Source: Pedobacter sp. SL55
GTDB lineage: Bacteria; Bacteroidota; Bacteroidia; Sphingobacteriales; Sphingobacteriaceae
Direction: 5' to 3'
Assembly (NCBI RefSeq): GCF_026625705.1
Contig: NZ_CP113059.1
Location: forward strand, 4,278,001 to 4,342,000
Length of the DNA stretch: 64,000 nt
A program made the translations under genes and the position numbers. Positions 22,638 to 28,880 of the stretch are shown in pieces. Positions within the stretch are counted from its first letter, which is position 1, and each line of letters starts with the position of its first letter. The notes beneath the pieces are model-generated. The model was not told where the DNA came from. It saw only the letters and a list, made by a program, of their open reading frames with translations, and searched no databases.

Positions 22638-23690
22638 ATGTTTAAAGCTAAAACAATTACCCATAAAGGGCAAAGTCGCATTGCGGTTTATTTTGAGAAC
22701 AAGCCCGAGCTTACTGCTCGTTTTAAACAATTACAAGGTGCTAAATGGAGCGCCACACTAAAAGTTTGGCATTTACCAGCCACAGCGGCTTATCTTAAAC
22801 AATTTAAAATTATAACTGAGGCAGTTAACATTCATCAAAAAAAAGAAACAATACCTATTAAGCCCGAGTTGGCGCAATTTATAGATTGGCTAAAGAGCAG
22901 GAGATATAGTAACAGCACCGTAAAAACCTACACAGAAGCACTTCGTATCTTTCTATCTTTCTTTGGCGAAAAAAAAACGGAAGAAATTACCAACACAGAT
23001 TTGATCTATTTTAACAACCAATACATCTTAAAAAATGAACTTTCGGCCTCATACCAAAACCAGATGGTAAATGCCATTAAACTATTTTTTAGTATTGTAC
23101 AACAAAAGCAACTAGACATTAGCAAAATACACCGACCAAAAAGAGCTAAAACATTGCCTAATGTTTTAAGCAAAGAAGAAGTTAAAGCCATTTTAACGGC
23201 TCACAATAATATGAAGCACCAAACCATGCTTAGCCTGATATACGCTTGTGGTTTACGCCGAAGCGAACTTCTAAACCTTTTGCCAATACATATAGATAGC
23301 AACCGAGGTTTGTTGTTAATTAAGCAAGCCAAAGGTAAAAAAGACAGGGTTGCCCCTATTTCTGAAAAAATAGTGAATTTGCTAAGGGCATACTATAAAG
23401 CTTACCAACCCAAAAAATGGCTGTTTGAAGGTCAGCTTGCAGGCCAAAAATATAGTGAGAAAAGTTTAGAGAATGTTTTAAAACAAGCTCTAAAAAAAGC
23501 GAAAATTAACAAACCAGTTAGTTTGCACTGGTTAAGGCATAGTTACGCTACTCATTTATTAGAGAGTGGAACAGATTTACGTTTTATACAAGAGCTATTA
23601 GGGCATAGCAGCAGCAGAACCACTGAAATTTATACACATGTAAGCACTAAGAGCCTAAAGAATATTAAAAGCCCCTTTGATGATTTGTAA
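22638..23690 (+). CDS. Tyrosine recombinase of the integron-like cassette system
   Basis: About 350 aa from ATG 22638 (a TTG two codons earlier is possible). Residues 1-60 are an extra N-terminal domain (HKGQSRIAVYFENKPELTAR...KWSATLKVWHLP); then a SAM-like core-binding domain (80-165) and the catalytic domain with R (GLRRSEL), K (KGKKDR), HxxR (HWLRHS), H (LGHSS) and Tyr (EIYTH), all intact. The tail SPFDDL recalls IntI's SPLD, but the ~20-residue IntI-specific insertion before box II is missing. It reads towards the cassettes, unlike most IntI. Immediately downstream are the palindromic site and cassettes it probably recombines. Confidence 0.9.
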   Translation: MFKAKTITHKGQSRIAVYFENKPELTARFKQLQGAKWSATLKVWHLPATAAYLKQFKIITEAVNIHQKKETIPIKPELAQFIDWLKSRRYSNSTVKTYTEALRIFLSFFGEKKTEEITNTDLIYFNNQYILKNELSASYQNQMVNAIKLFFSIVQQKQLDISKIHRPKRAKTLPNVLSKEEVKAILTAHNNMKHQTMLSLIYACGLRRSELLNLLPIHIDSNRGLLLIKQAKGKKDRVAPISEKIVNLLRAYYKAYQPKKWLFEGQLAGQKYSEKSLENVLKQALKKAKINKPVSLHWLRHSYATHLLESGTDLRFIQELLGHSSSRTTEIYTHVSTKSLKNIKSPFDDL

Positions 23691-23713
23691 TAAAAAAACA
23701 TATATTTGATTTT

Positions 23714-23801
23714 AACGTAATACCTCGGTTTTATGGCGCAAAGCGAACACATTTTGGTTGACTTAGCGCCATTTTATGAGGGGTATAAATAAGTTGTGTG
23801 C
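23714..23801 (+). other. attI-like palindromic recombination site
   Basis: Begins 24 bp after the recombinase stop. Arms ATACCTC...ATGGCGC (23720-23739) and GCGCCAT...GAGGGGTAT (23766-23786) form a long imperfect hairpin bounded by AAC on the left and GTT on the right. The GTT at 23793-23795 begins the core GTTGTGTGC that starts cassette 1. No T run follows, so it is not a simple terminator. Confidence 0.7.
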
Positions 23802-23841
23802 AATTCGACCGACACTGCAATAGACCCAAACATTCTAAATT

Positions 23842-24780
23842 ATGAGAATTGAAAATAGACGAGTTGTAAATCGAAGACTTATAAATAAAACAATTGTCGA
23901 AGATGATAAGAAAGGCTTGTTTTTAACAGACTGTAATCTGAACATTATCGAAAGTATAGGCTTTGACAACTTCCGTCTTATAGACTTTGCACCAAATGGA
24001 AACATTGTTCTCTTAAAATCAAAGGAATGGCTGACAATACGGAATGCAAATAAAACTAAACTTACAGCTTTTGACATTCATAGTAAAAAGCAGTTATTTT
24101 CTATTGAAAAATTTCTAGCGTATAGAGGTTTGATAGACAAAAATTCAAAATATTTTTTACTTGAACATTATGGAGGTTTGTGCTCAATTGACCTAAATAA
24201 TGGAGAGATTATTTTCAGAAAAGATAAAATTGATAAAAGTTTATACAACGCTGACTTACATCTTGAAAGTAATGTTGTTTACATACCAACAGAGAAAAAA
24301 TCCATTCTTACTTTTGACTTTAATGAACAAAAAATCAATGAAATAAAATTGGAAAATACGGGAGGAACCGCTTGGCTAAAATTCAATAATTTGCAAACTC
24401 ATATATTAATAAGTGACAAAAAGAACTCATTGCACTGTTTTGAACATAACAATTTCACAAACCCAGTTTGGACATTAAATTTTTCCAAGATTAAAAAAGA
24501 CAATAGAATTTGGTGTTATAATATATTAACGACAGAAAGTAATTTAGGTTGTATTCAGGGCTTTACACCTGCCAGTGACCAAAATGAAAACGCAGGTGGG
24601 ACTTTGTACACTTTCAATATCGAAAATGGCGAAATAATTGACAAATATGATTATGCAAAAATTAAAGAGAGTATCATTACTGATTTCCAGTCAGACGAAA
24701 TCCTAATTGACAATTTAACAAGTTTATCATTGACAAATAAAACAATAAGAAACACACCGATTACAGAGTTGCTTAAATAG
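23842..24780 (+). CDS. Cassette 1 protein: beta-propeller-like, unknown function
   Basis: A 312-aa soluble protein, rich in Asn/Lys/Ile, with repeated short beta segments (for example GNIVLLKSKEWLTIRN, GLCSIDLNNGEIIFRKD, ILTFDFNEQKINEIKL, TLYTFNIENGEIIDKYD) as in WD40/PQQ-type propellers. No signal peptide. No family recognised. It is the only gene between the first core TTGTGTGC at 23794 and the attC-like site at 24789, so it is the cargo of a 1,124-bp cassette (23794-24917). Base composition is AT-rich compared with the core genes. Confidence 0.75.
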   Translation: MRIENRRVVNRRLINKTIVEDDKKGLFLTDCNLNIIESIGFDNFRLIDFAPNGNIVLLKSKEWLTIRNANKTKLTAFDIHSKKQLFSIEKFLAYRGLIDKNSKYFLLEHYGGLCSIDLNNGEIIFRKDKIDKSLYNADLHLESNVVYIPTEKKSILTFDFNEQKINEIKLENTGGTAWLKFNNLQTHILISDKKNSLHCFEHNNFTNPVWTLNFSKIKKDNRIWCYNILTTESNLGCIQGFTPASDQNENAGGTLYTFNIENGEIIDKYDYAKIKESIITDFQSDEILIDNLTSLSLTNKTIRNTPITELLK

Positions 24781-27445: not shown

Positions 27446-27724
27446 ATGAAAACAACACAATTTACAGAGGCACAGATTGTTTCAATATTGAGACAGCATG
27501 AAAAAGGCGTTAAGGTAACAGATATTGCCAGAGCAAACGGCATATCAGAGAAGACCTTCTATCGATGGCGAAGCAAATATGGCGGGATGGAAATTAACGA
27601 TCTCAAACGCCTAAAGGAACTTGAGGCAGAAAACTCCAAGCTGAAACGGATGTATACCGATCTGGCACTTTTGAACGATGCGCTAAAGGATCTGATTGAA
27701 AAAAGCTTTAGCGCCTTGCGATAA
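27446..27724 (+). CDS. IS3 family OrfA, helix-turn-helix protein
   Basis: A 92-aa protein with an N-terminal HTH (TEAQIVSILRQHEKGVKVTDIARANGISEKTFYRWRSKYGG) and a leucine-zipper-like helix (LKRLKELEAENSKLKRMY). Typical of IS407-group OrfA, which binds the IS ends. Its 3' end overlaps orfB by 29 bp around an A6G run. Confidence 0.92.
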   Translation: MKTTQFTEAQIVSILRQHEKGVKVTDIARANGISEKTFYRWRSKYGGMEINDLKRLKELEAENSKLKRMYTDLALLNDALKDLIEKSFSALR

Positions 27725-28523
27725 AAAAGAAGCTGTTACTTTTCTGCTTGTCGAACATCAGATCAGTAAGCGCAAGGCTTGTGATAGCATTAAAATCTCA
27801 AGAAGCAGCTTCAGTTACTTGGCCCGCATAAAGCAGGATGACAAGTACATTGAACTATTAAATGGTTTGACAGAAAAGCACGTAAGCATAGGTTTTTGGC
27901 AATGCTACCATCGGATAAGAAAGTCAGGGGAAATGATCAACCATAAAAAACTCTACAGGATTTACACCGCACTAAAACTGAACATAAGAAGAAGGGCTAA
28001 AAAAAGATTGCCAGCAAGGGTAAAACAGGCTTTGTTCCAGCCCGGCAAAATCAACGAGGTCTGGAGCATAGATTTTATGAGTGACAGCTTATGGGATGGC
28101 AGAAAAATAAGGTTATTGAACGTGATTGATGATTTTAACAGGGAAGTTTTAACGATAGAAACAGACACATCGCTGCCAACATTACGGGTAATAAGGAGTT
28201 TGGAAGAAATCGCCCAGCAAAGGGGTTATCCCAAAATGATAAGGGTTGACAACGGGCCAGAATTTATTAGTGCAAAACTGGATATTTGGAGCAAGGAAAA
28301 TAAGATCCAACTTGTGTTCATTCAGCCTGGTGAGCCCACGCAAAATGCTTATATCGAAAGGTTAAACGGAACTTTCAGAAGGGATATATTAAATGCCTAC
28401 GTATTTAAATCAATTCAGGAAGTAAGAACAATAAGTGAAGAATGGATGAATGACTATAACTATAGTAGGCCACATAGAGCACTCAAAAATAAAACACCAA
28501 TAGAATACAAATTATGCCAATAA
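27696..28523 (+). CDS. IS3 family transposase OrfB
   Basis: An integrase-core (rve) transposase, up to 275 aa, with DDE residues in WSIDFMSD, IRVDNGPEFIS and AYIERLNGTFR. The frame is +1 relative to orfA; a -1 slip on A6G would hit TAG after two codons. Expression therefore needs +1/-2 slippage or internal initiation (TTG at 27696). The catalytic region is intact, so the element may still be mobile if OrfAB is made. Confidence 0.9.
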   Translation: MKKALAPCDKKEAVTFLLVEHQISKRKACDSIKISRSSFSYLARIKQDDKYIELLNGLTEKHVSIGFWQCYHRIRKSGEMINHKKLYRIYTALKLNIRRRAKKRLPARVKQALFQPGKINEVWSIDFMSDSLWDGRKIRLLNVIDDFNREVLTIETDTSLPTLRVIRSLEEIAQQRGYPKMIRVDNGPEFISAKLDIWSKENKIQLVFIQPGEPTQNAYIERLNGTFRRDILNAYVFKSIQEVRTISEEWMNDYNYSRPHRALKNKTPIEYKLCQ

Positions 28524-28744
28524 ATTCTATTTTTGATTGGTACGAAATTTAGGGAAGCACACAAAAGCGGACAATCACCAAACAAGAAATGTCCGACCTG
28601 TAAAACGGCAGATGTTGTGTTAAGAAAATCAGGTAAAGCAAGAAATGGTAATACATATAAATTCTTCGGTTGCACGAATTACTTATATGGTTGCGACTAT
28701 ACAACAACAGAATGGATAAACAACTAACAGCGGACAGAAGGGCA

Positions 28745-28880
28745 GCTGATAACAGGCGTTTGGCTCAATGGCGGGTGAAGTGGTTAATTGAACATTCTAC
28801 CACGCATCAACATTTGTGGTGTATTGACAGTTTTGTGCTCCGAAATCCGCCACTGCGCCAAGCGCCAAAACGTTATGTGT
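28745..28880 (+). other. attC-like site 2 (end of cassette 2)
   Basis: 136 bp from GCTGATAAC (28745-28753) to GTTATGTGT (28872-28880). The left core is the inverse of the cassette-2 start TTATCAGC at 24918, 3.8 kb upstream across the IS. Arms GGCGTTTGGC and GCCAAGCGCC pair with one wobble, GGCGG pairs with CCGCC, and the inner text matches site 1. Confidence 0.87.

Follow-up and report, generated by a model that had tools for sequence, protein, structure and literature searches.

Evidence for an integron-like gene-cassette platform, probably run by a non-IntI tyrosine recombinase, in Pedobacter sp. SL55 and other Bacteroidota

We analysed a stretch of 64,000 nt from Pedobacter sp. SL55 (contig NZ_CP113059.1, positions 4,278,001 to 4,342,000; hereafter the window, in which positions are given unless another locus or the genome is named) and observed, at 22638..28880, a tyrosine recombinase gene followed by an attI-like palindrome and gene cassettes with long folded sites at their ends. 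We consider it very probable that this locus is an integron-like platform for the capture of gene cassettes, run by a tyrosine recombinase that is not an IntI. Comparison of this locus with its relatives shows an attI with locus-specific repeats, same-sense tandem cassettes of mostly one gene, complementary nine-base cassette ends, a close association of the sites with the recombinase and one cassette that organisms share, with homology that ends at its borders; the system very likely works like an integron.

The recombinase gene (22638..23690, plus strand) encodes 350 aa from an ATG, with TTG at 22632 as another possible start; its product matches Pfam Phage_integrase and SAM_4, and the gene points at the array. 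Between its stop codon and the insertion core lies the attI-like palindrome (23721..23785), with a repeated word of 9/10. The putative insertion core GTTGTGTGC (23793..23801, plus strand), with the cut expected at G^TT, is the reverse complement of the start of the first site, and it has the same position in other loci. Cassette 1 (23794..24917, plus strand) contains an open reading frame (ORF) of 312 aa (23842..24780, plus strand) that matches no family of Pfam (E≤1e-3) or of PADLOC (E≤0.01); the cassette ends in an attC-like site of 137 bp (24789..24925, plus strand) starting with GCACACAAC (24789-24797). Cassette 2 (24918..28872, plus strand) is interrupted; it starts with TTATCAGC at 24918, within the core GTTATCAGC (24917-24925), and has an attC-like site of 136 bp (28745..28880, plus strand) starting with GCTGATAAC (28745-28753), at the end of which the core GTTATGTGT (28872-28880) was read directly. 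In both cassettes the nine bases at the start, which include the G^TT core, match the start of the cassette's own site exactly as its reverse complement; a circle inserted at G^TT would be expected to leave such a scar. An alignment of the two sites with their flanks has 151 columns, and they agree in 86 of these. A preliminary description of this DNA had named the recombinase, the palindrome and the cassettes, and its starts of cassettes and sites (23794, 24789, 24918 and 28745) are right to the base.

From five full sites, the two of the window and three found elsewhere in this genome by a DNA search, we built a covariance model (R1), with which the seed sites of the window score 137.1 bits (site 1) and 137.6 bits (site 2). 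A scan of 99 genomes, this one and relatives (E≤0.01, best 32 candidates per genome scored), detected sites in 59 of them, some in long arrays such as the 15 sites of genome G077, which are broken by a single 19-kb gap, and the 12 of G088. We aligned 63 of 114 site matches (alignment A6) and derived a second model (R2) from the alignment. Adjacent sites were compared in 20 fetched regions and the window, using 92 of the 114 matches after opposite-strand echoes and one partial match had been dropped: 54 of 73 pairs were complementary in all nine bases, 62 in at least eight, six were lower and five had an unread core. In the named loci described below, the full complement was observed in 100 of 122 pairs, as against 2.2% under shuffled pairing; three genomes occur in both sets of pairs (L081=L128, L087=L165, L088=L162). 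The geometry of circle insertion, which had been proposed from the two cassettes of the window, is found elsewhere too and goes far beyond chance.

The predicted fold of the sites has its evidence in covariation over the 63 aligned sequences, where 92.0% of cells were paired (68.6% after shuffling, 28-44% with the structure slid) and 256 double changes were counted, as against 80 after shuffling. The structure was drawn from these same related sequences, which flatters both controls, yet the gap is large. Folding of single sequences was unremarkable for the two sites of the window (z from -0.6 to -2.6); such energies are weak evidence, and the structure rests on covariation. It has a spacer of 1 nt on one side of the site and 5 nt on the other, and such a one-sided spacer would allow a choice of strand.

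Classical attC cores have the form RYYYAAC / GTTRRRY. The consensus observed here is near GTTRNNNGY, matching over nine nucleotides; GTTRRRY fits 12 of 252 cores, in keeping with the departure noticed in the window beforehand, and RYYYAAC fits 10 of 258. The length of a site with both its cores is 135-139 bp in 124 of 164 measured cases, close to the 136-137 bp of the window and to the ~137 bp first estimated, with an overall range of 61-210 bp. Two short sites (L165 11449-11513, a model match of 65 nt; L150 11513-11589, one of 77 nt) have cores identical to the attI core, and thus site length varies here as it does in classical attC.

To follow the recombinase we took 80 relatives from a scan of named genomes; they are the best-scoring set and make no census. 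Their record titles name Bacteroidota (Flavobacterium, Pedobacter, Pelobium, Kaistella, Saprospiraceae and others), with the exception of one metagenome-assembled genome (MAG) labelled Azoarcus and one Ignavibacteria. Around them R2 detected 174 sites, all on the strand of the recombinase, 173 of them downstream (in 319 kb) and one upstream (in 688 kb); sites were present in 37 of the 41 loci having at least 2 kb of downstream sequence. Sites were present in 45 of the loci; there the core of attI and that of the first cassette were identical in 39 cases, agreed in eight of nine bases in five and did not correspond in one. Measured from where the recombinase match ends, the core lies at 92-116 nt in 37 of the 39 exact loci; in the other two the distance is +70 and +87. 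Locus-specific repeated words of at least 9/10 were seen in 27 of 40 attI regions, as against 5% of shuffles. The covariance search that the preliminary description had suggested thus returned sites with matching start cores in other genomes, adjoining this recombinase; neither sites devoid of such cores nor sites always apart from the recombinase were the outcome. For a grouping with phage or ICE (integrative and conjugative element) integrases the tree gave a thin test, with two phage integrases, of which one stood beside the window clade without support (80/39).

These counts bear on the explanation that the enzyme is an integrase of a phage or of an integrative and conjugative element (ICE) and that the repeats belong to an unrelated element such as a miniature inverted-repeat transposable element. 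An extra N-terminal domain is common in such integrases, a phage integrase stands beside the window clade in our tree (80/39, unsupported), and cassette 2 carries an insertion sequence. Still, nine-base complementarity specific to each cassette, one-gene units and a near-constant attI distance are unexpected of transposons, the 174 sites share one strand, and among the eight window ORFs searched with Pfam no phage or ICE gene was found besides the recombinase, the remaining neighbourhood having been just listed. We find this explanation scarcely credible.

The class of the recombinase was assessed with curated models. With TIGR02249 (IntI, cut-off 265 bits) the window protein scores 194.1 bits and five relatives 177.8-209.8, all below the cut-off. 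It is likewise under the values for XerD (191.4 versus 329.6) and XerC (185 versus 335.15), and with the XerA model NF040815 (curated 220) it scores 219.5, with three relatives over (222.1, 221 and 231.5) and two under (194.2 and 195.5). NCBI labels several of the proteins 'site-specific tyrosine recombinase/integron integrase'; this is the name of a general XerA model and no evidence that the arrays were recognised. The nearest solved chains by sequence are archaeal XerC-like/XerA ones, followed by VchIntIA (2a3v). We take the motifs GLRRSE (from 207), KGKKDR (234), HWLRH (299), LGH (323) and YTHV (334; all in 352-residue numbering) to have the catalytic roles.

The IntI-specific additional domain around patch III is missing, as had been stated from the window sequence. 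The distance from KGxKDR to HxLRH is 65 residues in the window recombinase, 64-65 in the 74 measurable of 79 rows of the window type (one protein appearing twice) and 64-67 in 16 of 20 relatives without the N-terminal domain, versus 106 in the eight measurable of 29 IntI sequences; alignments to the IntI profile and to 2a3v break at the position of this insert (~41 residues). A C-terminal SP[LF]D-like motif was found in 75 of the 79 rows, in all 20 relatives without the domain and in all 29 IntI, in none of nine Xer proteins of the genus and in three of five phage or other recombinases.

The extra N-terminal domain, also mentioned in the preliminary description, corresponds to a predicted domain at 22638..22841 (plus strand), weakly similar to HARP and DUF5710; an AlphaFold model of this part alone has the order beta-beta-alpha-beta-beta-alpha with a mean predicted local distance difference test score of 72.5. 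The best Foldseek match of the model is the HARP domain of SMARCAL1 (E 0.088, not significant), with XPB also among the best non-significant matches, and VIA-align gave no strong fold for the domain, HARP not being among the matches listed. At E≤0.1 the DUF5710 profile matched 17 of 47 members, with 3e-4 as the best value, and Arm-DNA-bind_2 matched one of 47 (E 0.087). HARP proteins act on branched or partly single-stranded DNA, hence our guess that the domain may hold the folded sites.

In a sample of 395 Bacteroidota genomes (R2 sites at E≤1e-5, best 8 candidates per genome; recombinase at E≤1e-60) we found sites in 182, the recombinase family in 116 and canonical IntI, over the TIGR02249 cut-off, in 105. 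Sites were present in 100 of the 116 genomes with the recombinase versus 82 of the 279 without it (p 3e-26). One could suppose that a canonical IntI located elsewhere in the genome moves the cassettes and that the neighbouring recombinase is incidental. IntI does occur in the phylum, and 37 genomes have both IntI and sites, though 25 of the 37 hold the new recombinase as well. On the other hand, no IntI scored above the cut-off in the 99 genomes of the first scan, 59 of which have sites; one genome (G133) among the 105 with IntI belongs to the same class; IntI and sites are negatively associated in the 395 genomes (odds ratio 0.54); and around 20 IntI genes (276 kb) we detected two weak R2-type matches (19.8 and 18.8 bits), a weak control. 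We judge this supposition most improbable.

A scan of the 20 IntI loci for the classical attC pattern in its strict GTTRRRY form gave no matches, and looser geometry scans with 7-nt cores gave 10 and 6 versus 7.3 after shuffling. With 9-nt cores, 5 and 4 candidate cassette borders (9 in all) were seen in these loci (L228-L247) versus 0.3 after shuffling. As these crude scans met few cassettes of any kind, the R2 control around the IntI genes demonstrates a lack of association and not a different type of IntI site.

The recombinase appears in two forms. We picked by hand 20 relatives whose match starts past most of the N-terminal domain, sites having already been seen near four of them (genomes G329, G290, G424 and G134). 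Sites were present in 12 of these 20 loci, and 23 of 24 sites were upstream on the opposite strand, which is the classical divergent integron layout; this layout was seen in 11 of the 12 site-bearing loci, and an exact attI core also in 11 of the 12. The statement that the recombinase points at the cassettes thus describes the form with the N-terminal domain and does not extend to the form without it. The exception in layout, L269 (genome G266, contig C1), is an insert-less protein with a weak site (28 bits) on the same strand; it adjoins IntI in the tree and is a possible link between the two lineages.

In the tree, from which one bad IntI reading frame (L190) was left out, the window type forms a clade of its own (99/94). 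IntI forms a tight one (100/100), into which none of the insert-less proteins falls, and the Xer proteins of the genus (XerL) form another (100/100). The remaining insert-less proteins are scattered, with L269 and L281 next to IntI (95/92); the tree includes two phage integrases and no ICE integrase. In constrained-tree tests none of four groupings was rejected: approximately unbiased p-values were 0.073 when both forms were united in a clade, 0.456 when three rows were dropped from that clade, 0.151 when the window type was joined with IntI and 0.367 when it was joined with Xer. Accordingly, phylogeny allows the family to have arisen independently, to descend from IntI or to be ancestral to it. 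Of the earlier wording, an independent or distant Bacteroidota cassette-capture system, the tests support the capture system; its origin may or may not have been independent.

It is possible, though we rather doubt it, that we are dealing with a true though divergent IntI whose insert has been lost, and so with a branch of the integrons, a proposal about descent that is compatible with the functional interpretation given above. The common SP[LF]D-like motif, the same insertion geometry and the admissible joint clade speak for it. The exclusion of these proteins from the tight IntI clade and the place of the window type as a separate clade among insert-less proteins speak against it, as does a published survey that deems the IntI insertion essential to integron function. 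A broader proposal, to which we give an even chance, is that IntI is not alone in capturing cassettes with folded sites. A large group of insert-less recombinases would run an integron lineage of its own across Bacteroidota, in two forms (one of classical divergent layout, the other with the HARP-like domain and attI at the 3' end of the gene); this lineage would be either of independent origin or the stock that gave rise to IntI, and it would provide an as yet unnamed route for single resistance genes in, among others, Riemerella, Myroides and Empedobacter.

Cassette contents were examined where the borders were good, which gave 169 cassettes, at least eight of them entering the count twice as three genomes are in both sets. 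The longest ORF runs toward the site in 153, in the opposite sense in five, and 11 have no ORF of 50 aa; the median cassette is 846 bp long and the ORF stops 9 nt ahead of the site (median). Eight array cassettes searched with Pfam gave a methyltransferase, MerT/HMA, a MarR regulator and DUF3800, with four giving no match. In the window, cassette 1 agrees with the claim that each cassette has one gene; in cassette 2 a UvrD-like helicase ORF that ends early (24967..27321, plus strand; Pfam UvrD-helicase E 1.9e-40, GajB-like and DRT helicase profiles with best E 9e-35) is followed by a transposase pair (27446..28523, plus strand; HTH_Tnp_1 and rve/rve_3), presumably of the IS3 type.

Signs of movement were observed as well. 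A cassette of 1,435 nt is common to Pelobium (L142) and a Bacteroidia MAG (L187); its copies are 93.7% identical in a match of 1,451 columns, with homology stopping within ten bases of the cassette borders, and one cassette is duplicated inside the array of L116 at 99.6% identity. Both cases, together with 76 of the best 80 recombinase relatives that translate without an internal stop, argue against the idea that the arrays are dead relics of an inactive system, as does a published insertion in a living Riemerella strain, provided that the same system is at work there (PMC13148043). Wear in the window array would suit relics, and so would the 13 R1 site matches scattered over this genome, of which the window has two; we hold that idea to be improbable.

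A Blast search with site 1 found 12 plasmids, which come from Myroides, Empedobacter, Riemerella, Haliscomenobacter and Chryseobacterium, whereas 20,395 Escherichia coli records gave no match; site 2 found one plasmid (Emticicia). In stretches of five of the 12 plasmids, R2 sites bracket lnu(H) (core 9/9), blaMYO-1 (8/9) and two serine-hydrolase ORFs on a Riemerella plasmid (8/9); they also bracket a blaOXA, where the cores agree in 4/9 and the geometry does not hold. The stretches in which such sites flank drug-resistance genes (blaMYO-1, lnu(H), blaOXA and beta-lactamase-like ORFs) are L285 2488-3610, L282 436-1633, L284 1493-2643 and L283 1493-2738. A Chryseobacterium plasmid has a copy of the recombinase with sites downstream. 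According to the section read of a 2026 paper, aph(3')-IVb entered Riemerella by natural transformation without homology, and 27 bp from upstream and 140 bp from downstream of the gene came with it; the 140 bp fold like attC, the mechanism is 'yet to be fully elucidated' and no recombinase is named there (PMC13148043). This acquisition fits the system described here and may be an instance of it. We saw no Riemerella recombinase by name among the best 120 matches of a protein search, few of which bear organism names.

Several observations weigh against an integron-like system of this kind. The geometry fails in some pairs (e.g. 7, 7, 7 and 5 of nine bases in L073), and in the form without the N-terminal domain four of 12 adjacent pairs were complementary in 9/9 and one more in 8/9, with missed sites between them possible. 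No site was detected in 35 of the 80 named loci, mostly those with little downstream sequence, four having more than 2 kb (L140, L153, L164 and L176), or in 16 of the 116 genomes with the recombinase. The resemblance of the N-terminal domain to HARP is weak, and the window array appears worn. The 82 site-bearing genomes without the recombinase imply that sites persist or move without it, or that another enzyme serves them. The genus mate G077 has long arrays and 30 site matches, its best match to the IntI profile being no better than that of an ordinary Xer; here, arrays can persist without the recombinase.

Beyond site 2 the window has a truncated cassette 3 (28873..29252, plus strand), cut short inside a GmrSD_N gene (ORF 28929-29252; E 1.8e-21), and then an alcohol-dehydrogenase-like ORF (29218-29784, minus strand), also truncated in appearance; this region is perhaps the right-hand edge of the island. 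Further along, R1 gave a single site-like match (40615-40745, E 0.75), and an Rfam search gave nothing relevant. Sites of the same type away from the recombinase in this genome (191124-194853, 3677592-3680936, 317487, 2304348, 3010136, 3321433 and 3932870) resemble loose cassette clusters.

Returning to the integron-like interpretation, we suggest that the recombinase would excise cassettes as circles and insert them at attI by acting on one strand of the folded site, as IntI does. More speculatively, the HARP-like N-terminal domain might help to grip folded DNA in place of the missing IntI insert, and it might go with the relocation of attI from its classical place to the 3' end of the recombinase gene. 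A gene-collecting system of Bacteroidota may explain uptake of single genes, resistance genes among them. If our interpretation is true, a capture system present in 182 (by sites) or 116 (by recombinase) of 395 Bacteroidota genomes has been largely unrecognised so far, the origin of integrons becomes testable, dispensable parts of IntI are revealed, and a mechanism is on offer for the published cases in which Bacteroidota acquired resistance genes without homology.

A search of open-licence papers, preprints aside, found no description of this system. An IntI call by IntegronFinder needs both a general tyrosine-recombinase profile and an IntI-domain profile (PMC9668308), so that this recombinase would probably be missed. 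Bacteroidota are counted among integron-bearing phyla in reviews (PMC8618304), and IntegronFinder 2 names one complete integron in Bacteroidetes, that of Salinibacter ruber (PMC9024848).

Compared with integrons of IntI, both class 1 and sedentary chromosomal, the system has several things in common: attI lies next to the gene of a tyrosine recombinase, cassettes of one ORF follow each other in tandem, the attC-like sites are folded, insertion is at G^TT, and loose clusters occur free of an integrase. It differs in a recombinase without the insert and with an N-terminal domain, in cores near GTTRNNNGY over nine nucleotides, in an attI at the 3' end of the gene in the form with the domain, and in sites of mostly 135-139 bp. 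With respect to the definition of an IntI integron, three tested features are absent (the insert, the IntI score and the core consensus); a conserved attC secondary structure and an attI with a G^TT core adjoining the recombinase gene are present. Unlike Xer/XerA, with which one clade was not rejected, the recombinase has the extra domain, lies beside cassette arrays and stands apart from the XerL of the genus in the tree. The HARP domain of SMARCAL1 and the damage-recognition domain of XPB are similar to the N-terminal domain by weak fold or sequence matches, none of them significant. When Riemerella takes up aph(3')-IVb, lnu(H) or blaRATA without homology (PMC13148043), the gene enters as a unit with 27 bp and a 140-bp attC-like sequence; similarly, lnu(H) and blaMYO-1 have sites of our model on either side in plasmids of Bacteroidota.

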